From a virus, in the IMG/VR virus record IMGVR_UViG_3300033149_004199, positions 1-25,418 of that record: 25,418 bases of DNA; one strand, 5' to 3'. Made by a program: the position numbers and the translations under genes. How positions within the stretch are numbered: the stretch's first letter is position 1; every line of letters begins with the position of its first letter. Below, one piece after another: positions 83 through 25,186 of the stretch. Below the pieces are notes generated by a model. That model ran no database searches and was not told the origin of the DNA. It saw only the letters and a list, made by a program, of their open reading frames with translations.

Positions 83-379
83 GTGCCCCGCAAAGAAGAG
101 TTAGATCAATTGATGGATATGGCCCAGAAGGCACTCCTAGAAGATGCCACGGGCCGCGATGCGCTCAAAACGCTTCTGGATGCCTTTGGAGGATTTACAA
201 CCGTCGCCAAAGCACTTAAGCACCAGTTTGAGAAATTGCCCGACGGCCATCCGGCAAAAATCAAGCTGTTGATGATGATCACCCACGCGGTCATCCGGTT
301 CGGCGAAGGTTCGGTTGGTAGCGACGATTTGTCGGAAAACGAAGCTCAGCTCACCCGTCTTCTCCAGGAACTCAAGTGA
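83..379 (+). CDS. Small helical protein before TerL; possible small terminase subunit
   Basis: A 98-residue protein starting at GTG 83. No strong Shine-Dalgarno is visible, so it may be translated by coupling to the gene that ends just upstream. It appears almost wholly helical, with a charged N terminus (residues 1-45), a Lys/His-rich centre and an acidic C terminus rich in Glu and Leu. Its stop (TGA 377-379) overlaps the TerL start (GTG 376). A small helical protein directly upstream of and coupled to the large terminase is the usual place for the small terminase subunit, which recognises the packaging site and loads the motor. I see no clear helix-turn-helix, so that role is inferred from position. 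It could equally be another small packaging-region protein. Confidence 0.6.
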   Translation: MPRKEELDQLMDMAQKALLEDATGRDALKTLLDAFGGFTTVAKALKHQFEKLPDGHPAKIKLLMMITHAVIRFGEGSVGSDDLSENEAQLTRLLQELK

Positions 380-3087
380 ACGCTGCCGATCTTCAATCGC
401 TCGTCGAACAGACTACGCCGGCCCCGTTCGATTGGAACGTGGATCGAACGACCTTAGCCCGGCAAGCTGTGCGCCTTGCGCAACGAATCCTGGAGCTTCG
501 TCAGGAAGCACTTCGATTAGCTCGGCCGCTTCCACATACCGAAGCATTCTTTAGTTCTAAAAAACAGGTGCGTTTACTCTTTGGGTCAAATCAATGTACC
601 TCATTGGACACACCAATCCCAACCAATCGTGGTTTGCTTCCGGCGGCACACGTTAAGGTTGGCGACGCGGTAATTGGCGGTCAGGTTATCGCTAAGTGGA
701 TTTCGCCAGAGCCCGTTACTACCTTCCGGGTCACTTGCACCGGCGGGTATTCCGTCGTAGCCAACCGAGAGCATCCGCTGCTAACTAAAGAAGGCTTTAA
801 GACGGTTGCTGACATACGGCCCGGCGACGAAATCAAAGTTGCCTTGGACGATTGGCCCTGGGATGACTCACCGGTGATGACGGCAACGGATGCTTATTTT
901 TGCGGCATCATGGTGGGCGACGGATGTCTCACGCAACCGCATGGCGTCATGCGCTTAACCACCGCTGACGCATTTCTGGCCGAGTGGTTTACGACGTATC
1001 TAAGCAGCCAGCACGTGCAGGTTGATCAAAAAGCGGGAAACAAAGCAGTCGACCTGCGGGTTTGCATTGCCTCTCTCAAAGAGAAAATGGAATATCTCTG
1101 GGGTGTTCAAATGGTTGGCGCCCGGGAGAAAAGCATTCCAAGCGCGGTCTTCGGAGCGCGTGAACTTGCCCGACAGTTTCTCCGGGGATACACGGACACG
1201 GATGGGTGTGTCTACATGCCCAAGAAGAGCGTCAAGGGGCGGCGGATCGTCTGGATTTCGGCATCGGAACTCCTGCTCACGCAAGTGCAGCAATTACTTC
1301 TGGCCTTTGGCGTCTTTAGCGAGTTGACTCACACGGCAAAAACACTCGGCGACAAGCAGTTTGATCAGTGGCGATTGACAGCACACGGCCCGTGGGCCGA
1401 CCGTTTCGTGGAACGAATTGGATGCGCTCTGGTCAGAAAACAGGACAAGTGGAAAGCCAAAACCGGGGTCCAGAAGCGTAAGTGCAAACCGTGTCCAGAT
1501 GAAAAGTGGGTTACGGTCAAATGGCGGCATCATTGCCACAAGAAGTATGTCGTTGGTTTGACAGTTGATCCAACCAACACTTACGTGACGGCGGGACTTT
1601 GGTCGCATAACTCGGCAAAAACTTTTCATGGTCTTCTGGAACTTGCCCGTGCCGTCACGGGGCAAGATCCATATAACAAATATCCCAAGAAAAACGGAAG
1701 AGCGATTATTGTCGGTTACGACGGCGATCATCTCGCAGATCCCGTCTATCACAAGCTGTTCAACCCGGGTGAGTTCAAGTTGATTCCAGATGAACAAACG
1801 GGTCAATTGCGGGCCGTGCGTCCCAACCCGAACAACCCCCGACAGATTGATCTATATGACGATTCCTATCGCGAGAAGTGGGTTGACGCCCCGCCTCTCA
1901 TTCCACCCCGATTCGTCGCCGAACAGGCGTGGGACCGGCCCAACAAACGGATTCCCCGCCTGACGACGCTCACCACGGGTTGGACGATCCTCTGGCGAAG
2001 TTCCAATGGCAGACCCCCGCGTGGACGGCAGCTCCATCTCGTCTACCTCGACGAGGATTTGAAACATACGGATGCCTGGGTGAACGAGTTGATTCCCCGT
2101 CTGATCAGACACGGGGGAAAGATGATTTGGGCAGCTACTCATCAAGAAGGGGGTCCGGAGCTTTATGAGTTGACTGAAAAAGCCAATGCCGGATCAATCT
2201 ATATCGATGCGTTTCAGTTACGAATCGTCGATAATCCATTCATTTCCGAAGAGCAACGCGATTTCTTTCTCAATACGCTCACTACCGAGCAGGACGTGAT
2301 GGTGCGGTATTATGGCGAGAGCGCCGTAGTGGGCCGGAAAATCTATCGGGACTATTCACCTAACGGCTCTCATGGTTGTGAACCGTTTCCATTCCCCATG
2401 ACGACCTGGTGCCGATACTTATTCATCGACCCAGGCGCGGTGCGCAGCGCAGCCCTCATCATTGGCGTCGATCCGAAAGAGCGCCATCGCTGGGTCATCG
2501 ATGGCGTTGATATACGCCAGGGAGACGCGACTCGACTGGCCGCTGAAATCAAAGCTCGTCAGGGGGGCGCTCATTTTGAAGCGATCATCATCGACCAACA
2601 GGCCGGTAAGCAGACTCCGATGGGACACGAAGCCCGGGACCGTACCGCTCCCTACTACTGGCGGGCCTTAGAATCGGCTGGCGTCGTTCCTCGCGTCCAG
2701 GGGCCGATTGCCGGTTTTTTCCCAAGTTGCAATGACGTTCATGCCCGCGAAGAGGCCCTCAAGGGTTGGATGCAGATTCGAGGCACCGGACCATTCGCCG
2801 GAACACCTATCCTCCAAGTCGTTCGTGGCGCTCTTCCCGAACTCGATCGGCAAATCAGTCTAGCCCAATATATTACTCCCGAACGACGGCTCAAACAGCC
2901 GCAAGACCTGCTGGACTGTCTCGAATATGCCGCCGCCTTCAATCCGACGTTCCATCCGCCCGAGCCTATTCGGATACGCACGCCGCCGCCGTGCCGCTCG
3001 GTCGCTGATCGGTTCCATGCCAAGCGACAACACGACCACGCCCGCCGACAATCGCGACGTTTTGGAGCCGCGATGGAAGTGGGTTAA
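376..3087 (+). CDS. terL: Terminase large subunit (TerL) with an intein in the Walker A loop
   Basis: 903 residues unspliced and 564 after removal of the intein (residues 74-412). TerL is the DNA-packaging motor: an ATPase that pumps DNA through the portal and a nuclease that cuts the concatemer. The spliced Walker A reads GSNQ/SAKT, with Ala where most P-loops have Gly. Walker B is VYLDED (residues 556-561, Asp559-Glu560), and a coupling motif follows (MIWAATHQ, Thr588). The RNase-H-like nuclease has its acidic residues at FIDPG (Asp685), IIIDQQ (Asp740) and DLLD (Asp844/Asp847). The GTG start at 376 overlaps the preceding stop. About 55 residues beyond the last nuclease motif are Arg-rich and look disordered. 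The intein separates the two halves of the P-loop, so the precursor cannot bind ATP normally until spliced. The family assignment is secure. Confidence 0.95.
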   Translation: MNAADLQSLVEQTTPAPFDWNVDRTTLARQAVRLAQRILELRQEALRLARPLPHTEAFFSSKKQVRLLFGSNQCTSLDTPIPTNRGLLPAAHVKVGDAVIGGQVIAKWISPEPVTTFRVTCTGGYSVVANREHPLLTKEGFKTVADIRPGDEIKVALDDWPWDDSPVMTATDAYFCGIMVGDGCLTQPHGVMRLTTADAFLAEWFTTYLSSQHVQVDQKAGNKAVDLRVCIASLKEKMEYLWGVQMVGAREKSIPSAVFGARELARQFLRGYTDTDGCVYMPKKSVKGRRIVWISASELLLTQVQQLLLAFGVFSELTHTAKTLGDKQFDQWRLTAHGPWADRFVERIGCALVRKQDKWKAKTGVQKRKCKPCPDEKWVTVKWRHHCHKKYVVGLTVDPTNTYVTAGLWSHNSAKTFHGLLELARAVTGQDPYNKYPKKNGRAIIVGYDGDHLADPVYHKLFNPGEFKLIPDEQTGQLRAVRPNPNNPRQIDLYDDSYREKWVDAPPLIPPRFVAEQAWDRPNKRIPRLTTLTTGWTILWRSSNGRPPRGRQLHLVYLDEDLKHTDAWVNELIPRLIRHGGKMIWAATHQEGGPELYELTEKANAGSIYIDAFQLRIVDNPFISEEQRDFFLNTLTTEQDVMVRYYGESAVVGRKIYRDYSPNGSHGCEPFPFPMTTWCRYLFIDPGAVRSAALIIGVDPKERHRWVIDGVDIRQGDATRLAAEIKARQGGAHFEAIIIDQQAGKQTPMGHEARDRTAPYYWRALESAGVVPRVQGPIAGFFPSCNDVHAREEALKGWMQIRGTGPFAGTPILQVVRGALPELDRQISLAQYITPERRLKQPQDLLDCLEYAAAFNPTFHPPEPIRIRTPPPCRSVADRFHAKRQHDHARRQSRRFGAAMEVG
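595..1611 (+). mobile_element. Intein with LAGLIDADG homing endonuclease, inserted in TerL
   Basis: A 339-residue in-frame insertion (TerL residues 74-412). It starts with Cys74 and ends in His-Asn, and the first extein residue is Ser413, which is the canonical splice chemistry. Block B has its His at residue 133 in NREHPLLT. Two dodecapeptide motifs mark a LAGLIDADG endonuclease: YFCGIMVGDG near residues 174-183 (Asp182) and FLRGYTDTDG at 268-277 (Asp276). The C-terminal block resembles the standard F/G blocks (valine-rich strand, Asp, Thr-Tyr-Val, then SHN). Both catalytic acids are present, so the endonuclease may be active. The insertion point between Gln and Ser of the P-loop is the most conserved part of the gene, as expected of a homing element. 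Confidence 0.93.
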
Positions 3088-12104: not shown

Positions 12105-13118
12105 ATGGATCGACGGTGCTGTTGCGAAAAAAGTTGCCTGATTGGCGAAGATAATTTTAACCGAGATTCCCTCGGTGACGATTGGGCTGTAATCAACGGC
12201 GAACCGTATCTTCAAGACGGCCGTCTATTTTTGCCTCCGGAGGCTCATGTACAGTACAAAAAGCCATCCGGGCTCCGAGCAGGTCGTTGTGATGTAAGAT
12301 TATGTGACATTGCCGCGGGTGCGAGTTATGGCGTCTGCCCCCGCAATCTAGACGGCACAGGTTCCTTCGTTGCCTCATGGGCATTCAAGGATGAAGGAAG
12401 TGGTCTTCTAGAGCAATTATTATTACCAGGGGAAACATCAGAATGGTTTCCCGTTTCGCCCGGTACACCCTGTCAAGAGGAAAGAGCATCGGCAATATGG
12501 ACGCAAAGAGACAACTACTCGATGACCAATAGCAATGGAGAGCAAGGCATTACATGTTGTCACAACGGGGAAAAGGGCAGGTATGTAGGGTTAATGAATC
12601 TTGGCACGACCCTCATCTCATTCGACGATTTCAGATGGTGGCGGCATGACGAAGAATTACCCGGTTGTCCCGAAACAGATTGCTCATGCTTAAACAAATG
12701 TATACCAGCAAGTCTTACAGCCACATTCACTGGGGGATGTGCCGCTCTTGAGGGCTGGTCGATTCCGTTGAGTGAAGAACCTCTTGTAGGGCTCAAAGCG
12801 GATTCGCACTGGAAAGGTTCGGGGAATTGTCCTAAAGATGGTCTCGCAACACCTTTGGACTTCGTATGCGGTGCCGCACACGGAATGAAGAGCTTCATCC
12901 TCAAAGCATTTGATGCAGGCGGTCCTACTGCTTGGTTTGAACATCTCGAATGTCAATACCTTGATACTTCAGGTTGTCCCAATAACGAAGATGAGTCATC
13001 ATGTGATCCGTTGCTTATTAGATTTGGTCCGTTTCGATCCAGCAGCTCGGATTGTGAGTGCTGCGATGAAGAGTGGCCCAGCGAGTGCCCTTCCTTCTAC
13101 ATTGACATCACAGAATGA
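12105..13118 (+). CDS. Cys-rich LamG-like surface protein (probable tail tip or spike)
   Basis: 337 residues from ATG 12105, 2 nt after the previous stop. An in-frame ATG further upstream would overlap the preceding gene. It begins with MDRRCCCEKSC and then a segment around residues 15-45 (EDNFNRDSLGDDWAV, then a turn and GRLFLPP) that strongly resembles the opening strands of LamG/concanavalin-like lectin domains. I count 24 cysteines in 337 residues, concentrated at both ends and around DCSC-NKC and SDCECC. They may form disulphides outside the cell or bind metal. Sugar binding at the host surface is a reasonable inference. I remember similar Cys-rich openings from planctomycete proteins, but that is recall and unverified. 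Confidence 0.7.
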   Translation: MDRRCCCEKSCLIGEDNFNRDSLGDDWAVINGEPYLQDGRLFLPPEAHVQYKKPSGLRAGRCDVRLCDIAAGASYGVCPRNLDGTGSFVASWAFKDEGSGLLEQLLLPGETSEWFPVSPGTPCQEERASAIWTQRDNYSMTNSNGEQGITCCHNGEKGRYVGLMNLGTTLISFDDFRWWRHDEELPGCPETDCSCLNKCIPASLTATFTGGCAALEGWSIPLSEEPLVGLKADSHWKGSGNCPKDGLATPLDFVCGAAHGMKSFILKAFDAGGPTAWFEHLECQYLDTSGCPNNEDESSCDPLLIRFGPFRSSSSDCECCDEEWPSECPSFYIDITE

Positions 13119-15085
13119 TCAGATACGAGTGTAAATGCGAAATTCCTGAGAAGGGCTCTGTCTTTTGCAAGCGTCACAATTGCAAAAAATCCCCTCGCCT
13201 GATCCAACTCTGCCACGCCGGTCAACGTGGCGAGTCGCCCGGGGTGAAATACTGGCGGGCCTGGGAAGAGGGCCGTGGACCAGGGCAAACTCTGCCTCCG
13301 TCTCTTACGACGAAACCCTTGACGAAAGGCCCCGGCACGCAACTGAAGCGGCTATTTCAGTGGTTCAAGATCACTGCAAATCGCGGCTGTCAGTGTAAGC
13401 AATGGGCCGCACTGATGGACTTGCGCGGGTGCGATTGGTGCGAGGCAAATCTCGAAACGGTTATCGGCTGGCTTCGTAAAGAAGCCGCCGTTCGCAAACT
13501 GCCCTTCACGGATGCCGTCGCCCGCCGTGTCGTGAAACTCGCAATCTATCTGGCCAGGCGCGAAGAGAGTTCGCCGATTGCCTTCGTACACCCAATGGCA
13601 CTAACACAACTGCTCTGTTTCGAGTTGGGTTCTGATTGCAACCTAAGTGACGTACATGACCGTTGCCCAAATCAACATCCCGAGCGCTACTCACACCTCG
13701 ATACGGACCGCTTATTGGACGATGATACGATCGTCGAGATTGCCGAGCGCATGTATGACGAATTCCACTTCACGGGTTTTGTGGCGTTCCATTACTACAA
13801 CGAACCGCTGGTCCAGGCGCAGCGGATGTTCGGCCTGATAGACCGGATCAGGGAGCGTGTCTCCCAAGCAAGATTCCTGCTTTGGACGAATGGCACCATG
13901 CTACCGGATGACTGTTCTCGTTTCATTGTATTCGATCAAGTCTATCTGACAAACCACGATCCAAAATCCGTTAGAAACCTGGATTCTCTGAGACGGCACG
14001 TCAGTAAAGTGGTCGTGCTTGACAATCGATTGGACGGACGACTCGATGCGCTCGGTGAGACGGAGCGCAATAACCCATGCGCCCGAATGCACGTCGAGTT
14101 CGTGATTGACAACTTCGGCAACGTCCATATCTGCTGCCACGACTGGAGAGGACTCGCTTCGCCCGGCAACGTATTCACCGATGACCTGACGATGCTGGTT
14201 GCCCGCTGGGAGCGGATTCGAGATAGTATCTCGGGACAACAAATGACCAACGATGCCCCCGAAGTTTGCTGGCGCTGCCGGATGCGAACTGCCTGCATAG
14301 ATGTATTCGAGCCGCGAATCGTCAAACAAATCAAGGCGTTCCGCCGACTCTGGAAGCTGGGGACCGGGCTGAAAGTCGCTGTTGTGCTTTGCCACTACGA
14401 GATACCCGACTGGCGATTGCGGGAACACTTTGAATGGAACGATCGTCTTTATCGCCAGGCAGATGTCCGCGTATACGTCGTGACGGATAAACCCTACGAT
14501 ATGCCGGACTACGCCGAATATATCGTTTATCCGAAGGAAGACCTGCCGACTATCGACGGGAAACCGGCGTTCTGGATCACGGGTCTCAAGAACGTCGGGG
14601 TAAAGCAAGCGATTGCCGCTGGTGGCGAACTAATCATCTGTAGTGATACGGACATTGCTTACACGCCGAAAGCCTGGGAGCGGATGATTACTATCGGACC
14701 GGACGAGGCCATCATTCCCATCTACCACAAAGCTAAGTATTTCGAGCGCCGACACAAGGAAGCCCATGCTGATCCCGGCTGTGAAGGCGTGATCGCTATG
14801 TGGGCCGAGCACTGGGCGACTTGCCCCTGGGAAGAAAAATGCGTCGGTTATGGTGCTGATGACCGCGTACAACACGATCGAATCGAAGAAAACTTGAAAA
14901 TTCGAGTGAGTCGCGACGTGGTTGTTTATCACATCGACCACCATCCACAAGATGGAATCGACCATGGACCGAGTCTGCTTTGGAACGCCGACGGGCTGAA
15001 CCCGGCAAACTTCCAAAACAATCGCCAATATGTTCGCAAGCGGCGTAGAACTCACAAGTGGCAACCGGAGAAGGCGAAACCATGA
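13115..15085 (+). CDS. Fusion: radical-SAM/SPASM-like domain plus GT-A glycosyltransferase
   Basis: 656 residues, ATGA-coupled to the Cys-rich gene. Residues 1-60 hold scattered cysteines (6, 8, 18, 23, 33) and a GRGPGQ turn. Residues about 165-320 resemble a radical-SAM barrel (ELGSDCNL, then YYNEPL and LLWTNGTML). However, the cluster region is Cys175-x8-Cys184 instead of CX3CX2C. A SPASM-like region follows with Cys322, Cys340-Cys341 and Cys385-x2-Cys388-x5-Cys394. Residues about 415-640 form a GT-A glycosyltransferase: strands KVAVVLCHYE and RVYVVTD, the metal/nucleotide motif SDTD at 510-513, and YGADDRVQHDRI resembling the acceptor side of galactosyltransferase C-terminal domains. It may transfer a sugar to a virion or host glycan, and the first half may be non-catalytic. 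The GT call is more secure than the radical-SAM call. Confidence 0.78.
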   Translation: MIRYECKCEIPEKGSVFCKRHNCKKSPRLIQLCHAGQRGESPGVKYWRAWEEGRGPGQTLPPSLTTKPLTKGPGTQLKRLFQWFKITANRGCQCKQWAALMDLRGCDWCEANLETVIGWLRKEAAVRKLPFTDAVARRVVKLAIYLARREESSPIAFVHPMALTQLLCFELGSDCNLSDVHDRCPNQHPERYSHLDTDRLLDDDTIVEIAERMYDEFHFTGFVAFHYYNEPLVQAQRMFGLIDRIRERVSQARFLLWTNGTMLPDDCSRFIVFDQVYLTNHDPKSVRNLDSLRRHVSKVVVLDNRLDGRLDALGETERNNPCARMHVEFVIDNFGNVHICCHDWRGLASPGNVFTDDLTMLVARWERIRDSISGQQMTNDAPEVCWRCRMRTACIDVFEPRIVKQIKAFRRLWKLGTGLKVAVVLCHYEIPDWRLREHFEWNDRLYRQADVRVYVVTDKPYDMPDYAEYIVYPKEDLPTIDGKPAFWITGLKNVGVKQAIAAGGELIICSDTDIAYTPKAWERMITIGPDEAIIPIYHKAKYFERRHKEAHADPGCEGVIAMWAEHWATCPWEEKCVGYGADDRVQHDRIEENLKIRVSRDVVVYHIDHHPQDGIDHGPSLLWNADGLNPANFQNNRQYVRKRRRTHKWQPEKAKP

Positions 15086-15672
15086 AGGTACTTGGAATCG
15101 GTCTACCTCGTACAGGAACGGCTTCACTTGCCGCTGCGCTTACGCAACTCGGATATAAATCGCAGCACGCGGCTGGAAATCGATACCCACCGCAGGTACA
15201 TGATTGCCAAGTCGAGTTCGGAATGGATCACTTTCGGCGATTCGATGACTTGGAAGCGATTGTCGAGTGTGAATACTGGCGGTGGTTAATCCTAGCGTAT
15301 CCCGACGCTAAGTGTATTCTGACAGTCCGCGATCCCAACGACTGGTATCGTTCAATCGCCGCACACATCGACGCGATTCACAATCGCGAAAGGAAGGATT
15401 GTTGGTCGGAGATCGAAGAAGCGGATCGGTCACACGAGCGGCTGTTCGGCTCGAAGTGGCCGCTCCGCACGTTGTATCTCGACGCTTACGCGCGCCATTT
15501 GCTTGCCGTCAAGGCGTTTTGCCAAAACAGGAATCGTCCGTTGCTCATATTCCGAGTTACCGAAGGCTGGCGACTCTTGTGTAAGTTTCTCGATAAGCCG
15601 GTGCCCGTTGAGACGTTCCCCTGGAAAAATCGACTGGTCACCCAAAATAATGAAACAGGAGATAACCAATGA
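15082..15672 (+). CDS. PAPS-dependent sulfotransferase
   Basis: 196 residues from ATG 15082, overlapping the preceding stop (ATGA), with a purine-rich CCGGAGAAGG just upstream. The N-terminal loop GLPRTGTASL (residues 7-16) is the 5'-phosphosulfate-binding motif of sulfotransferases. TVRDPNDWYRS (about 81-91, with Arg83 and Ser91) is the 3'-phosphate motif, and GWRLLCKFL near residues 162-170 followed by PVPVETFPWKN fits the Sulfotransfer_4 type. The enzyme moves a sulfo group from PAPS to an alcohol or amine acceptor, usually a sugar or small molecule. The adjacent glycosyltransferase suggests a shared glycan target (inference). At 196 residues it is compact for the family but seems complete. 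Confidence 0.85.
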   Translation: MKVLGIGLPRTGTASLAAALTQLGYKSQHAAGNRYPPQVHDCQVEFGMDHFRRFDDLEAIVECEYWRWLILAYPDAKCILTVRDPNDWYRSIAAHIDAIHNRERKDCWSEIEEADRSHERLFGSKWPLRTLYLDAYARHLLAVKAFCQNRNRPLLIFRVTEGWRLLCKFLDKPVPVETFPWKNRLVTQNNETGDNQ

Positions 15673-17976: not shown

Positions 17977-20900
17977 ATGGCTGTAGGAAATCTTCCGACT
18001 TTGCAATTACCCGCCCTGCCTGGCCGCGCACCACAGCGTCGCCGTCGCCGTCCGCTCCCACCCTCCATCACCGAGGAAGAACGACGTAACATCCTCGGCC
18101 GGGCGCTCGGCGGGTTAGCCTACATCGGTGGAGCCATCGACAAGCCGTTCGCCGCCACCCGGGGCACTGTAGCCGCCATCGGCAGCGCGCTCTCCGGTAA
18201 ACCCCGAAAGGCTAAAGAGGATATCAAGCAACTCCTCCACCTGATTCCCTTCTCAGGAACCTTTCGGGAACAGTTTACCGAGATGGGTATCCCCGTCCCT
18301 GAAGAACATATCTGGGGCCGGGAAGTCCTGGAGCGATTTGGGGCTCCCCGAAACAAGCCAACCGGCATCTCCGGTTGGAAACGCGATCCAGCCGAAGCGT
18401 TTTGGGACGTAGCAGGTATCGCAACCGATCTGTTCCTCGCCCCGCCCTTCTTACCTGGTTTGCTTCCTGTTACTGCGAAGGGAGCCAAGATCGGCCGGCT
18501 GGGCCAGAAGGCACTTAAAGAAATTGACGAATTTGCCCAACTCGGTAAGACCGAGCAGGCATTGACCAAGGCGACTCAACTTGCCAAACCGTCTATCGGT
18601 CTTAAGGCGGGCGAAGAAGGGTTGAAAGAACTTCAAAAACTTCCGAGCCGCCTTCTCGGCACTACCCCAGCAGCCAAGATTGCCGAAGTCGAAGCGGGCG
18701 AACGGGCCCTATTGGGACTCCGACCCACTTGGGGTGTCTGGAGCACCCTGTTAGGCAAACATCCAATCGCTACATTCGGTACGGGCAAAACAGCCGCCCG
18801 GGCCCTCGACGCCGTTTACTACAAAAGTGGCCTCATTCCCGCCCTACGAAGCCATTTTGGCGCTACTACCCTAGGAAAACGAGGCGGCACGGCCCAACGA
18901 GCGATTGAACAGGAAATAGCTGTCGAAATCCATCGAGCCGGCGCACTCAAGGGTCTCCTGCCCCATTTGGCGGCCGAACACGATGAATTGGCCAAAATCT
19001 ATGCCCAACATCTCCAGAAGTATGCCGAAGTGGCAGGTGATACTCGGGGTGTAACCCAATTCCGCGATTTCAGCCGCTATGTCACTGAAGTTCAGTCGAG
19101 GATCAATGGTGCAGCCCGGATGACTGAACAAGAAATCTCTGCTCTATTCCACATCCCAACCAACAACCTGAAACTATTAGACGAAGTCAATGAATTCTCT
19201 CGCCGATTGCACAACCTAGCGACCAACTCGATGGCCGATGTCCGAGACGAACTTTTCCGCCGCATCCTGGCCTACGGTGGTGATGGCGCCGTAATGCGAG
19301 CCGCCTTTGTGGCCCACATGCCCCGTCGACGGGTGGGAGCCCTCACAGTAGCCCAGGAAGAAGGACTCCGGGGCGCTCGACGATTCGACTATTCACTTAA
19401 ACGACTCCAGTCATTCGACGTACCTGAAGGAACGTATTTGATCAACCGCCTCGTGGGCGAGGGCATCTGGAGTCAACCGGCCGATGCAGCCCTTTCAAAG
19501 GTGATTCGGGGTAGCAAGAAAAACTTCGGCGGCTTTCACCAGGAACAGATCGTCCGGCTCAAGTCGACTTCCGGCCTCAAGGAAACTTTCGATGGAATAG
19601 GCCGCATTGTGGCGTTTGAGGGCGACAATGCTGTAGTTAGCCGACTTAACCCGAACGGGTTCATGGACCAGATCCGTGTACCGATTTCTGCCCTGGATGA
19701 TGCTACACAGGGCAGCGCGGGCGCCCTAGTGCCCCCGCCACTCTACACGAAAGAAGCCCAACGGGCTGCCTATGAGACCATCCTACGGGATAAAGGAATC
19801 GCATTCACTGCCAAGGATTCCGATACAGTCCTCCGGAGGAAAGCTCTGTATCATGGGCATCTTAAGCCGGCATTTGACCGGGAACTTCATCGTGGCATGA
19901 AAATCCCAGTGGAGGATACGACACGTCCGAGATGGATCAAGAAGGGGGCCACCGACAACGAAAACTTAGCCCGAGCCTTGGAGCGACTGGAAAAGGGTAT
20001 CGATCCGATTCGAGAAACGATCGACGGTAAGTCGATCCAGGTGGCCGAAGGAGCCAATTCCGTAACGGATGACTTGGCCTCGTGGCTATACGGCGGTCCA
20101 GCACTTCCCGATGGCCTCTTCAATCGAACGATCGTCGAGGATCACATTACCTACGTGACACATGGACTCGATTATCTCCACGGCTTGATGGTCAAACACA
20201 ACTTTTTGCACGGCGTCGCCACGACGACCCAGAAACCAGGATTTGTCCCTCTGGAAGAAGCGTGGGCGAGTGTCACTACACGATTCGGTCGACAAGCCAA
20301 AACGGCCCGTGCCCTCACTGATGACGGTCTCGATACTTTCGCCAGAGATTTCGGTGCAGCTCGTAGCGACATCTACGTGCCGGCCGGGACGGCTAAAACA
20401 CTCCAGATTTTCCAAGACATCGCGGAACCCGGCAGCAAAGTTCACAGCATGGCTGGCCAGATGTTCGATATTTGGACGGCCGGTATCAAAGCGGGATGGA
20501 CCCTGAGTTGGCCTGCGTTCCATGTCCGAAACTTCGCGGCGGGCCAGTTTCAGAATCTTGCTGCCGATGGACCTTACACGATCAGCCAGTACGGCAATCA
20601 GCTCAAGCAAGTCTCTCGCTGGATTCACAGTGGCGGCAAACAGCCATGGAAGTATGCTAGTGAAGTCGGGCCGGCGGAACTCTTGCAGAAGACGCTCGTG
20701 ACGGAACTGAAGGGGTCAACCGAAGATCTCGGGGCAGCCGGTGGCGGCCTCCGCTGGATTTTCGGGGCTCCAAAAACATGGAACCCGGCCCGGATTCGGG
20801 GTATCCCGAGAGCACTGGGTATGCAGCCGATTGCTCGTAGCGAGGCTCAATTCGTACCCATGGCAATTGGGGAGCGAGCTTATTCATACGTCGAGTCGAT

Positions 20901-22737
20901 GAATCGGCTGCCACTCTATGGCGCATGCCGAGACGCAGGAATGACGATGGAGCAAGCCGCCCAATTCGTCAAGCGGGTTCAATATGACTATTCGGCCAAG
21001 GCATTTACCCCGTTCGAGCGGGATATAATGCGTCGGTTCGTGTTCCCGTTCTACTGTGTCCCCGAAGACCACGAGATTCTCACCCGGGATGGTTGGAAAC
21101 GGTGGCCTGAATTGATTGCCGGAGAAGACGTGCTGGTCCTAGACCCCGAGACGCACGAGCTTCGATGGGAACCGTTGCAGGACGTCGCAACCTTTGATTA
21201 CGACGGCGAATTGTGGACGCTGGAACGAAGAACCGGCGGCTTCGAATTCACACCCGACCACCGATGGCCAACCGAAACGACGAAAAGTGTCGTTAAGGGC
21301 AAACAGTATGGTGGCGAGCGACGCATGAAGCGTGCTTGCGAGCTAAACACCTGTGATCGCATCCCACTTGTCGGGAACTATCAGGAAACGGACAGCGTAC
21401 TTTCTCCGCGCCACGCCGCCATTCTGGGGTGGGTAGTCACGGATGGATACTTCCGATGGCGAACGACTGGAGGTGCGGTTTCCGAACCGGGAACCGGCTC
21501 TTGCGAGATGCTCGTGTACCAATCCCCCAAAAAACACCTCGCGCTGGTTGCCGCGCTGCTCGGGACTCGACAGCGTCCTCCACACTCAGACACCGGCGTC
21601 TGTGCGGTTCCCGTAAGCCGTGAGGATACCGAAGCCATCACGAGCGTTTTCCAATCGCGAGAAGACCTACTCAAGATCGTTCCCCGACTCTCGCGTGAAG
21701 CAGCGGAGGCAATGTACGAGGCGATGGTTCTTGCAGAAGCACATGAGAGTGATGAACACCACTTCACCCGGTTTGCCCAAAGCGGCCCCAATGGTCGTCC
21801 TGTGCTCGAAGCATTTCAATTATTGTGTCTCTTGACGGACAAAAACGCCTGGCTCAACAGTAAAAAGAACGGCTGCTACGTGAAACGTAGCCGGACCATT
21901 CGGCATCACGAACGAGGCGGAATAGGGCGCAAACATTACAAGGGCGTTGTCTGGTGCCCCCAAACACCATCTGGCACTTGGATCATGCGACACGATGGCG
22001 CCGTCATTCCAACTGGTAACTCGTGGCTAAAGCATAACGCCATCTATCATGCGAGCGAAATCTTCGGCAATCCGGGCGGCAAGGTCTCGACGGCTATCCG
22101 CATGGCGGCTACCGCTAATCGGTTTGGAACCAAATTACCCCGCTGGCTTTCCGAGCAAGGAGCTATACCGGTGGGCGGTTCGCCCGAAGCAACGACCGTC
22201 ATCCGCCAGTTCGGTTTCCCCTTTGAAGACATTCGCAATATCCAAGCGACACCCGGCCGTACGGCTCAGCGGGCCGTTTCGCAGATGCACCCGGGCATCG
22301 CAATCCCGATGAAGCTCTTTAGCGGCAAGGACCCGTATACGGGTCGTGACCTGAAGCAAATGAGTGGTATGACGGGTATTTGGCAAATCGACACACTGTT
22401 CCAAGGGCTCCCCACATCGCGGGCCTACTCGACGTATCGAACCGCAACCGACAAACGAAAGAGCGCTCTGGTAATTGCCCTTGATCTTCTGACGGGCATG
22501 AAGCTCGGCACCTACGATCTCGAAAAAGCCCGGATCACTGATCTCCAACGAGCCATACAGGAAGAAATGGAGCAGAACCCGTATGTTTGGGAAGGCCGGC
22601 ACCAATATATTCCCAAACATCTCAAAGCGAAAGCCGGGCCGGAAGTTCCCCAGAAACTCCGCCAGATTCAGGCCCTCTCGAAGGAATTAGAGGCATTGAA
22701 AGCGGCACGGAAGCTCAAAGCATTCCCCACGTCTTAG
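17977..22737 (+). CDS. Giant virion-associated protein with an intein
   Basis: 1586 residues unspliced and 1264 after removal of the intein (1027-1348). GTGAGG at 17962-17967 lies 9 nt before ATG 17977. The N terminus is basic and proline-rich, and most of the protein is helical, with many Ala, Leu, Lys and Arg and no signal peptide. Two segments stand out: AFHVRNFAAGQFQN (about 847-860) and FTPFERDIMRRFVFPFY (1010-1026), whose continuation after splicing is SWLKHNAIYHASEIF. I recall such RNF and PFxxW blocks from large phage internal or 'polyvalent' virion proteins that may be injected with the DNA. That recall cannot be checked here. No transglycosylase or protease motif is visible, and it is not obviously a tape-measure protein. 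The structural role is likely, but the exact role is unknown. Confidence 0.78.
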   Translation: MAVGNLPTLQLPALPGRAPQRRRRRPLPPSITEEERRNILGRALGGLAYIGGAIDKPFAATRGTVAAIGSALSGKPRKAKEDIKQLLHLIPFSGTFREQFTEMGIPVPEEHIWGREVLERFGAPRNKPTGISGWKRDPAEAFWDVAGIATDLFLAPPFLPGLLPVTAKGAKIGRLGQKALKEIDEFAQLGKTEQALTKATQLAKPSIGLKAGEEGLKELQKLPSRLLGTTPAAKIAEVEAGERALLGLRPTWGVWSTLLGKHPIATFGTGKTAARALDAVYYKSGLIPALRSHFGATTLGKRGGTAQRAIEQEIAVEIHRAGALKGLLPHLAAEHDELAKIYAQHLQKYAEVAGDTRGVTQFRDFSRYVTEVQSRINGAARMTEQEISALFHIPTNNLKLLDEVNEFSRRLHNLATNSMADVRDELFRRILAYGGDGAVMRAAFVAHMPRRRVGALTVAQEEGLRGARRFDYSLKRLQSFDVPEGTYLINRLVGEGIWSQPADAALSKVIRGSKKNFGGFHQEQIVRLKSTSGLKETFDGIGRIVAFEGDNAVVSRLNPNGFMDQIRVPISALDDATQGSAGALVPPPLYTKEAQRAAYETILRDKGIAFTAKDSDTVLRRKALYHGHLKPAFDRELHRGMKIPVEDTTRPRWIKKGATDNENLARALERLEKGIDPIRETIDGKSIQVAEGANSVTDDLASWLYGGPALPDGLFNRTIVEDHITYVTHGLDYLHGLMVKHNFLHGVATTTQKPGFVPLEEAWASVTTRFGRQAKTARALTDDGLDTFARDFGAARSDIYVPAGTAKTLQIFQDIAEPGSKVHSMAGQMFDIWTAGIKAGWTLSWPAFHVRNFAAGQFQNLAADGPYTISQYGNQLKQVSRWIHSGGKQPWKYASEVGPAELLQKTLVTELKGSTEDLGAAGGGLRWIFGAPKTWNPARIRGIPRALGMQPIARSEAQFVPMAIGERAYSYVESMNRLPLYGACRDAGMTMEQAAQFVKRVQYDYSAKAFTPFERDIMRRFVFPFYCVPEDHEILTRDGWKRWPELIAGEDVLVLDPETHELRWEPLQDVATFDYDGELWTLERRTGGFEFTPDHRWPTETTKSVVKGKQYGGERRMKRACELNTCDRIPLVGNYQETDSVLSPRHAAILGWVVTDGYFRWRTTGGAVSEPGTGSCEMLVYQSPKKHLALVAALLGTRQRPPHSDTGVCAVPVSREDTEAITSVFQSREDLLKIVPRLSREAAEAMYEAMVLAEAHESDEHHFTRFAQSGPNGRPVLEAFQLLCLLTDKNAWLNSKKNGCYVKRSRTIRHHERGGIGRKHYKGVVWCPQTPSGTWIMRHDGAVIPTGNSWLKHNAIYHASEIFGNPGGKVSTAIRMAATANRFGTKLPRWLSEQGAIPVGGSPEATTVIRQFGFPFEDIRNIQATPGRTAQRAVSQMHPGIAIPMKLFSGKDPYTGRDLKQMSGMTGIWQIDTLFQGLPTSRAYSTYRTATDKRKSALVIALDLLTGMKLGTYDLEKARITDLQRAIQEEMEQNPYVWEGRHQYIPKHLKAKAGPEVPQKLRQIQALSKELEALKAARKLKAFPTS
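21055..22020 (+). mobile_element. Second intein, in the giant virion protein
   Basis: A 322-residue insertion (residues 1027-1348) starting with Cys1027 and ending in Gly-Asn before Ser1349. A Gly in place of the usual penultimate His is seen in many phage inteins with the closing motif VWCPxTPxGT...TGN, which is present here. Block A (CVPEDHEILTRDGWKRW) and block B (FTPDHRWP, His1095) are clear. One endonuclease motif is ILGWVVTDGYF (Asp1156). The second (EAMVLAEAHESDE) has Glu1254-Ala1255 where Asp-Gly is expected, so cutting activity may be weakened or lost. It is unlike the TerL intein in its C-terminal chemistry and in its endonuclease sequence. The extein target is the conserved PFY/SW block. 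Confidence 0.92.
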
Positions 22738-22881: not shown

Positions 22882-23651
22882 GCGTCCTCGGCTACGCCTG
22901 CGATCACTCCCGGTTTCCGCCTTTCGACACCATGCGAAAAGAAATCGAAGCGCGGTGTGCTGAGCTAGCCCCTGAATGGCAATTCTACGCCGACTCAATT
23001 CGAGTGGAACGCTTTAGCTGGTCACGCCGGCCAGCATGGGGGCAAGTCTTAGATCGCATCGCGAATAACGATCATCTCGTCCTCTATGACATTCGGCAAT
23101 TGGACAACAAGCTCTCATTGCGGGCCAAATGTCTGAAACAACTCATCGATGGCGGCGTCCACGTCCATCTAGTCCATTTCGGCGAGGAATCGCTGGAAGA
23201 CTTGCACGGAGCTGCCGGCGTCGCATTCGTCAAAATCCTCTGTGCAAACTCATCGCAAGACAAGCGGCGCAGCAAAAGACCCCCTCCCCGAAAACGTCGC
23301 CCCTCGACAAGTATGGCGGTCCACCAACTGAAGCCTCGTACACACCCGGGCTATGGCAAGACCTATTACCGGCAGGATGCAACTCATTGGGTTGTGGTCT
23401 GGTGCCCTATGCAATGCGACATCATCCGGGAAATCAAAGGCCGACGAGACGCAGGCGAGACGTTCGCTTCAATCGCTCGTGACTTCTACAAACAGAGAGT
23501 TACCGATGGAGTGGGCCGGCTTTGGTGCAAACGAAAGCGAAAACGAAAGCAAAAACCAATGCCCTGCCGAGAATACGACCTCACACGTCTTATGTCCGTC
23601 TACAGATGGTACGTCAAACTCCTGGAATCAGGCGGCCGGCTGGAAGCATGA
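22878..23651 (+). CDS. Serine-recombinase-like protein, probably catalytically dead
   Basis: 257 residues coupled to the 44-residue gene. Residues 4-105 follow the resolvase-fold pattern: VLGYACDHS in place of the usual GYxRVS, then RRPAWGQVL, NDHLVLYDI and a helix before GGVHVHLVHF. Aligned by eye, the catalytic serine position is His10 (with Ser11 beside it), the arginine at the RVS position is Cys8, and the DRLGR motif reads RQLDN, so the catalytic set seems lost. A basic Lys/Arg/Pro linker follows. A helix with the pattern of a simple DNA-binding segment comes after it (CDIIREIKGRRDAGETFASIARDFY, about residues 177-201). It may bind DNA as a regulator. The family link rests on weak similarity. 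Confidence 0.58.
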   Translation: MSVLGYACDHSRFPPFDTMRKEIEARCAELAPEWQFYADSIRVERFSWSRRPAWGQVLDRIANNDHLVLYDIRQLDNKLSLRAKCLKQLIDGGVHVHLVHFGEESLEDLHGAAGVAFVKILCANSSQDKRRSKRPPPRKRRPSTSMAVHQLKPRTHPGYGKTYYRQDATHWVVVWCPMQCDIIREIKGRRDAGETFASIARDFYKQRVTDGVGRLWCKRKRKRKQKPMPCREYDLTRLMSVYRWYVKLLESGGRLEA

Positions 23652-23847
23652 ACTCAGCAAGATCAGCATCAGCTTGCTCAAAGTATTCTTTGACTAACAG
23701 TTCAACCTCAATTTCTAGCGAATCCCAAAGAGGCCCTGGATATTCATCCCATTCAAAATCGCTGTACATCGAAGTACACCCTAACGATTCATCCGGCTCT
23801 TGCCTGGGATTATTGTCAGCTTTAGCTGTCTTTAATGGATCGCACAT
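23614..23847 (-). CDS. 77-residue acidic protein on the opposite strand
   Basis: Starts at ATG 23847 (- strand). AGGAG at 23860-23856 lies 8 nt before it, and a sigma70-type promoter is visible further upstream. A longer reading from 23937 has no such site. The protein has 18 Asp/Glu and only 5 Lys/Arg (net charge about -13), with a Trp/Asp/Glu-rich middle (FEWDEYPGPLWDS) and an acidic helix (EIEVELLVKEYFEQADADL). It converges on the recombinase-like gene, and the two ends overlap by 38 nt. Small acidic proteins can be DNA mimics, anti-defence proteins or regulators, but none of this is shown by sequence alone. Confidence 0.6.
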   Translation of the reverse strand: MCDPLKTAKADNNPRQEPDESLGCTSMYSDFEWDEYPGPLWDSLEIEVELLVKEYFEQADADLAEFMLPAGRLIPGV

Positions 23848-23894
23848 AAATACTTCTCCTGCTGGCCCTTGATGAATAGAAGCCTCATGTAGAA

Positions 23895-23922
23895 AATATA
23901 AGGTGGTAAATGGGTCACGCAA
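23895..23922 (-). promoter_or_regulatory. Candidate sigma70 promoter of the acidic gene
   Basis: Read on the - strand, TTGCGT (23922-23917) is a modest -35 and TATATT (23900-23895) a good -10, with a 16-nt spacer. Transcription would start near 23888 and give a leader of about 40 nt before the ATG at 23847. Confidence 0.5.
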
Positions 23923-24159
23923 CGAACAAACTATCAACCGGCCTTATCAGCCGCTAGTGTTCCGCTGGTGGCCGCTCCCAGCTCACAGCCCCAAATTGGC
24001 AACTGAATGCGGCTCTACTCGGTGCATCGGGAAATCGGTGCGACCGGCAGGAAGTCTCCACTGGCCCGCGGTTGAAAGATCACCCACCAGCGGCCAGGAT
24101 AGACCGCTCATCCGAACATGAGCGCCCCAAAATCCTGCCGGCCCCCTGGGACATAAAAC

Positions 24160-24259
24160 GGGTAAAGGGTCCCTGAACGGATAGCGAGACGCTTAACAGC
24201 GCCGCAGTAGCCGTAAGTCGCTATCTTGACCGAGCAGAAAAGACAGTCACCCTTTACCC
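24160..24259 (+). repeat. Strongest structured domain: 11-bp stem enclosing an 8-bp stem
   Basis: GGGTAAAGGGT (24160-24170) pairs perfectly with ACCCTTTACCC (24249-24259). Inside it, GATAGCGA (24180-24187) pairs perfectly with TCGCTATC (24218-24225), and inside that CGCT/AGCG (24190-24201) surrounds the loop TAAC. Perfect stems of this length nested within 100 nt are unlikely by chance and form the firmest part of the RNA candidate. Confidence 0.85.
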
Positions 24260-24479
24260 CGCCAGGATTGCGCGCCTACTAAACCTCGCCTGGCCTCAAA
24301 AGCATAAAGCCCCTGAGACCAATCGAAGCGATAATATAGGCAACTATTCATTCGCTCCCCTCTCTGGTGGCGTCTTGTCGCTCTGCCGACAATGACACGT
24401 CTAGTGCCCCCCCAAAAGAACCGACTGCATGACCATTTCGACGTACACCCCAGAGCCTGTGCAGCCCGTGGGGAGGGAA

Positions 24480-24491
24480 CCTATATATAGG
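24480..24491. repeat. 12-bp AT-centred palindrome
   Basis: CCTATATATAGG is a perfect palindrome, sitting in the loop of the last structured domain. It could be a protein-binding site, part of the RNA fold or chance. Its TATATA core resembles a -10 element, but no matching -35 is evident. Confidence 0.6.
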
Positions 24492-24540
24492 AAACGGCGG
24501 AAGCAGTTTGGGGGCCCTAGGGGGGCTTGGGTTGGACACT

Positions 24541-24690
24541 GCTCATGGGTACTGCGGAGCGGCTGATGTACCAGGTGGTGTGTCGCTGATATTGCTGCTC
24601 TGCGACCGCTGCAACGTGTTGCATACCAACGAGTTACGTCGATGGCTCCGTGCCGAGAGTGTGGTCGATCTCAAGTGTACTCCACTTGGA
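24541..24690. other. Non-coding stretch with small hairpins and a possible short zinc-ribbon frame
   Basis: Small stems continue here: GGTAC/GTACC (24548/24568), GTCGC/GCGAC (24582/24602), TGCAAC/GTTGCA (24610/24618) and CAAGTG/CACTTG (24672/24683). One + frame ending at 24696 encodes LLLCDRCNVLHTNELRRW and a later Cys, a possible zinc knuckle, but it lacks a good start and ribosome binding site. I do not call it a gene. Confidence 0.4.
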
Positions 24691-24778
24691 CGGTGATACT
24701 CGCCCAGGATGCCACCTGTCGATTAGTGTCAGCCGAACCTGTCAAAAATACCCCCTCAAACGGGGAGTTTGAACCCGA

Positions 24779-24820
24779 TTCCCTCCTTCCTCCCCCCTTC
24801 CTTCCCCTTTCCTTCTCCCT
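24779..24820. repeat. 42-nt uninterrupted pyrimidine tract
   Basis: All 42 bases from 24779 to 24820 are C or T on the + strand, so the - strand is pure purine with several G-runs (3, 6, 4 and 3). Some loops are 8-9 nt, so it falls just short of a textbook G-quadruplex. It could form triplex or quadruplex structure or serve as a protein-binding site. The neighbouring region to about 24855 remains pyrimidine-rich. Confidence 0.8.
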
Positions 24821-24892
24821 ACACCCCGCTTCTCTTGCTTTCACTTGCTCTCACGTTGCGGCAAGCGGCATCCGATGGTCGGGAGTAAAAGA

Positions 24893-24933
24893 TAGCCCGT
24901 CCCCTCCCTAGAGGGAGTTGCACGGACGGGCTA
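24893..24933 (-). terminator. Hairpin resembling a leftward intrinsic terminator
   Basis: TAGCCCGTCC (24893-24902) pairs perfectly with GGACGGGCTA (24924-24933) over 10 bp and encloses a second hairpin, CTCCC-TAGA-GGGAG (24904-24917). Read on the - strand the stem is followed by TCTTTT, as in a rho-independent terminator. On the + strand C-runs follow, so it would terminate leftward transcripts. No leftward gene is seen to its right in this window. Confidence 0.6.
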
Positions 24934-24942
24934 CCCCTATCG

Positions 24943-24975
24943 GTGACGTGCGTAGAGGCACGTCACTTGCAAGTG
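24943..24975. repeat. Two abutting strong inverted repeats
   Basis: GTGACGTGC (24943-24951) pairs perfectly with GCACGTCAC (24958-24966) around the loop GTAGAG. It runs into CACTTGCAAGTG (24964-24975), a perfect 12-bp palindrome sharing three bases. Such strings of dyads in a gene-free region often bind proteins, such as repressors or replication initiators, but no known site is recognised. Confidence 0.75.
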
Positions 24976-25186
24976 TAGGGGGAGGGGCGGATACGGTCAA
25001 CGGATGGAGGTTGCGTGACGGGAGGGGATTGTGGTGTTCGCCCTGGTCGAATTGGACACTTAGGATTTTGTGACAGCGTATTTGCCCCAATTCGAGAAAT
25101 TTTAAGTTGGTTTGTTGCAAGGACTTACGTCGAATCCGAAAAAAAACTTGTGGCAAATTAGCGAATAGCCGAGTACATTGCAGCGG

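Follow-up and report, generated by a model that had tools for sequence, protein, structure and literature searches.

The divergent intergenic region of a phage for which the searched collections contain no close relative houses a stretch (23948-24360) that may encode an orphan structured RNA of about 410 nt, either stand-alone or as a long leader, a reading that draws on predicted folds and whose chances we judge to be even. The statistical feature underneath it, that is, the stems and their excess, is confirmed to be real. The window analysed is the whole IMG/VR virus record, 25,418 bases in length. Few large structured phage RNAs are known and, if the region is transcribed, it would provide an additional, unrelated RNA family, from a phage lineage without close sequenced relatives.

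The stems that the initial annotation had singled out by eye in 23935-24515 are present and exceed what chance would produce. When perfect inverted repeats with arms within 150 nt are counted, this stretch contains eight of at least 7 bp, six of at least 8 bp, three of at least 9 bp and two of at least 10 bp, against expectations of 3.4, 0.86, 0.18 and 0.04, respectively, from 300 dinucleotide shuffles, none of which matched the six stems of at least 8 bp. The summed stem score is 350, whereas across 81 sliding windows from the rest of the contig it never rises above 258 (95th percentile 38), and it is the 11-bp and 10-bp stems that make this the stem-richest stretch of the contig. Individual stems held up as well, including the nested pair at 24160-24259, in which a perfect 11-bp stem encloses the 8-bp one, the CGCTCAT/ATGAGCG arms, which form a 7-bp hairpin (P3 in Table 1), and the GNRA-capped stem ATAG-GCAA-CTAT (24336-24347), which is flanked by AGCGA/TCGCT (24327-24331/24352-24356).

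Folding energies bear out the proposed structure over part of its length. Shuffled sequence folds less stably than 23940-24360 whichever strand is taken (z -3.4 for +, -3.0 for -; 0/150 shuffles as good in each case), a fold more stable than shuffles being one general criterion for a structured ncRNA, and this 421-nt fold is lower than all 55 same-length background windows of the contig on each strand. Support on the + strand stops near 24360, not at 24515, because 24360-24530 has a z of +0.9 there (-2.3 on the - strand), and 24360-24515 is therefore rejected as a folded + strand domain. The clearest module consists of H2 and the three-way junction (24020-24143), with a z of -4.35 on the + strand (0/200 shuffles as good) versus -2.9 on the - strand and with centroid and minimum-energy folds that are almost the same on +; the limits of this module, like those of the span, were picked with the sequence already in view, and a single module is not exceptional since some 124-nt coding windows go down to z -3.7.

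Table 1. Flanking genes and predicted elements of the structured region, with positions in the window.
Feature	Position	Strand	Remarks
Terminase gene	376-3087		Rightward; intein-bearing
1586-aa late protein gene	17977-22737		Rightward
257-aa gene	Stop end at 23651		Rightward
77-aa small gene	ATG 23847, stop 23614	-	Leftward; AGGAG ribosome site, from sequence
Structured core, candidate ncRNA, about 410-420 nt	23940-24360	+ slightly preferred	Fold z, stem excess
Hairpin H1, 10 bp	23950-23972	+	GCCGCUAGUG-UUC-CGCUGGUGGC; UUC loop; 3 G-U
Perfect 10-bp inverted repeat	23962-23971/24084-24093		CCGCTGGTGG/CCACCAGCGG
Hairpin H2, 8 bp	24023-24042	+	GAAA tetraloop 24031-24034; 3 G-U
Three-way junction	24044-24141	+	Begins one base after H2
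P1 of junction, 9 bp	24044-24052/24133-24141	+	
P2 of junction, 4+6 bp	24054-24057/24101-24104 and 24061-24066/24092-24097	+	
P3 of junction, 7 bp	24105-24111/24118-24124	+	
11-bp stem	24160-24170/24249-24259		GGGTAAAGGGT; z -3.3 (+), -3.1 (-)
Nested 8-bp stem	24180-24187/24218-24225		GATAGCGA; inside 11-bp stem
Long hairpin with internal loops	24281-24325	- favoured	A.C mismatches on + are G-U pairs on -
Hairpin AGCGA-UAAU-AUAG-GCAA-CUAU-UCAU-UCGCU	24327-24356	+	GNRA cap, symmetric 4x4 internal loop
Gene from ATG 25259	Runs off contig	+	GGAGAG site

Were the region transcribed, which we think more likely from the + strand because of the GAAA and GCAA tetraloops and the G-U pairs in H1 and H2, the product would be either a stand-alone RNA or the 5' portion of a long leader belonging to the 25259 gene. 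Such an RNA would presumably act through its fold, in which a hairpin plus three-way-junction module is followed by a long closed stem. Not all predicted stems can coexist, because the 10-bp stem competes with or crosses others (it is a rival pairing to H1 and to P2 in its inner part, and it crosses P1). This repeat is possibly a switch or a pseudoknot; with the alternative pairing, the 5' hairpin could swap partners with the junction, and such an exchange would fit a binding or switching RNA.

The genes on either side score as coding. The 257-aa gene and the small leftward gene, which face each other, score 0.20 and 0.23 bits per codon by codon usage, respectively, and the 25259 gene 0.10, while the 1.4 kb between ATG 23847 (-) and ATG 25259 (+), where the structured region lies, score about zero or below in every frame tried. 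The earlier description of the region as gene-free is borne out and a coding explanation is rejected. Searches with a sigma-70-like consensus, which may not be that of the host, revealed no promoter, on + or on -, that would convincingly serve the RNA.

The intergenic region has other features of interest outside the structured part. On the - strand, 24884-25000 is a candidate small RNA gene, with a promoter-like TTGACC-17-TACACT at 25000-24972 and strong hairpins at 24966-24943 and 24933-24893 followed by a U-rich tail, ATCTTTTA (24885-24970 folds with a z of -6.0 on - and -4.7 on +), a layout that we take to be like that of lambda oop, a short terminated leftward phage RNA. The two hairpins are close to the GC skew minimum of the contig, which is weak and has the contig end nearby. 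A terminator-like hairpin followed by ATTTTT is found at 24750-24768 (-), and upstream of the 25259 gene there is a 9-bp inverted repeat, TCGAATTGG/CCAATTCGA, at 25047-25095 with a 31-base spacer, which is possibly an operator.

Elsewhere on the contig, the intein of the terminase gene has a LAGLIDADG endonuclease domain, and another rightward gene encodes a 641-aa protein, probably the portal, with counterparts in 72 of the fetched loci. The 1586-aa protein displays by eye an intein-like insert (FYCVPEDHEILTRDG...IPTGNS) that has no Pfam match. In the late-gene span 13115-15672, a protein with a weak, radical-SAM-like match to the SPASM iron-sulfur domain is followed by a protein that looks like a sulfotransferase by eye, a pair that is odd cargo among phage late genes.

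No homologues of the region were found in IMG/VR or, by blastn, in phage and plasmid collections, and the 257-aa and 77-aa genes led to no IMG/VR relatives. Terminase alignment reached 80 IMG/VR loci (about 30-34% identity) and also four remote genome loci, and whole-record searches for 34 of the 80 turned up distant copies of the 1586-aa protein. In these 34 terminase-related records the region was not found by blastn (the best E, 0.005, was a 20-base match), single-sequence covariance models of it found no homologue in the 34 distantly related phage records, and inspection of positions identified no counterpart in the large gaps of terminase-related loci. In exact motif scans, neither of two 19-mers matched anything, and nor did a gapped stem pattern. 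A 17-mer motif present in five viral contigs was attributed to chance, since all five are versions of a single unrelated sequence in which the match stops at the motif. As for known families, Rfam returned none at gathering score for the whole window and nothing relevant at E<=10 for 23600-25100 (a T-cell lncRNA match at E 4.8 was discarded as irrelevant), and there are 0 tRNA and tmRNA genes on the contig, which may be a fragment.

On the strand that would be read the evidence is divided, and we lean towards +, but not strongly. Transcription from the - strand, yielding either a molecule of its own or a long leader for the small gene whose stop is at 23614, with the + fold as a mirror image, is a serious possibility if short of a probable one; it sits within the RNA reading, and its probability overlaps that of our best explanation. 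It would account for the lower energy of 24262-24362 on - (z -4.1 versus -2.1 on +), where the stem at 24281-24325 gains several extra G-U pairs, for that of the whole of 23900-24530 (z -3.9 versus -1.2, from 20 shuffles), and for the nested 8-bp stem, which is part of the - strand minimum-energy fold and lies outside that of the + strand, where a fold including it costs 0.9 kcal/mol more. It accounts poorly for the module at 24020-24143, more stable on +, for the two tetraloops, which lose their GNRA character on -, and for the G-U pairs in H1 and H2, all six of which turn into A.C mismatches there.

The main rival to the RNA reading places the function in the DNA itself, as a control or replication region with an origin of replication, a packaging site or operators, whose inverted and direct repeats would be protein-binding sites or single-strand hairpins. 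The location between divergent genes speaks for it, the long stems are purely Watson-Crick, and both strands fold well; stem arms this far apart are, however, rare for protein sites and cruciforms, the long-range stems, with as much as about 120 nt between their outer arms, fitting an RNA better than protein-binding palindromes, and the G-U pairs that take the place of Watson-Crick ones in H1, in H2 and in the stem at 24281-24325 are meaningless in duplex DNA. Likewise, the cumulative GC skew minimum of the contig, at 24854, is weakened as an argument by the nearby contig end, and CAGGAT-like words (SSSCAGGAW), which occur in both orientations at 24045, 24092, 24132 (-) and 24260, are just mildly enriched over the contig (10 versus 4.8 expected). 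We consider this rival unlikely. Yet more improbable is chance or a relic, with some of the stems being accidental or left over from decayed repeats in non-coding sequence that drifts. While no conservation came to light and comparable z values turn up in isolated coding windows, both of which would suit such a relic, a stem excess matched in 0/300 shuffles and a 421-nt fold unequalled on the contig argue against it.

Returning to an orphan structured RNA, it is natural to ask how it compares with the large RNAs that phages are known to encode, since GOLLD and ROOL had been named as models. The general part of that proposal, a large structured RNA, is supported by the stem excess, the fold, the lack of a reading frame and the two GNRA loops, while membership of GOLLD or ROOL is not. 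GOLLD RNAs are in many cases longer than 800 nt and often have tRNAs nearby, and GOLLD and ROOL form RNA cages whose purpose is unknown, the ROOL/GOLLD nanocage being homo-oligomeric (PMC12286853). The region resembles GOLLD as a large, structured, phage-encoded RNA in a gene-free stretch, and ROOL as a phage-encoded one with many stems and a possible pseudoknot; it differs from both in that it has no covariance-model match in Rfam and lies on a contig without tRNA genes, and from GOLLD also in its structured span of about 410 nt, roughly half a GOLLD. That it represents a new structured-RNA family of phages, ~410 nt long, with no kinship to GOLLD, ROOL or any Rfam family and characterised by a GNRA hairpin next to a three-way junction, possibly with a switch between two folds at the 10-bp repeat, is a tentative and rather doubtful proposal. 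A further parallel is with candidate structured RNAs from comparative genomics of intergenic regions (e.g. PMC2864571, PMC6429828), which rest on homologue alignments where the phage region is one sequence only, but with which it shares an intergenic location, a fold and the lack of a reading frame.
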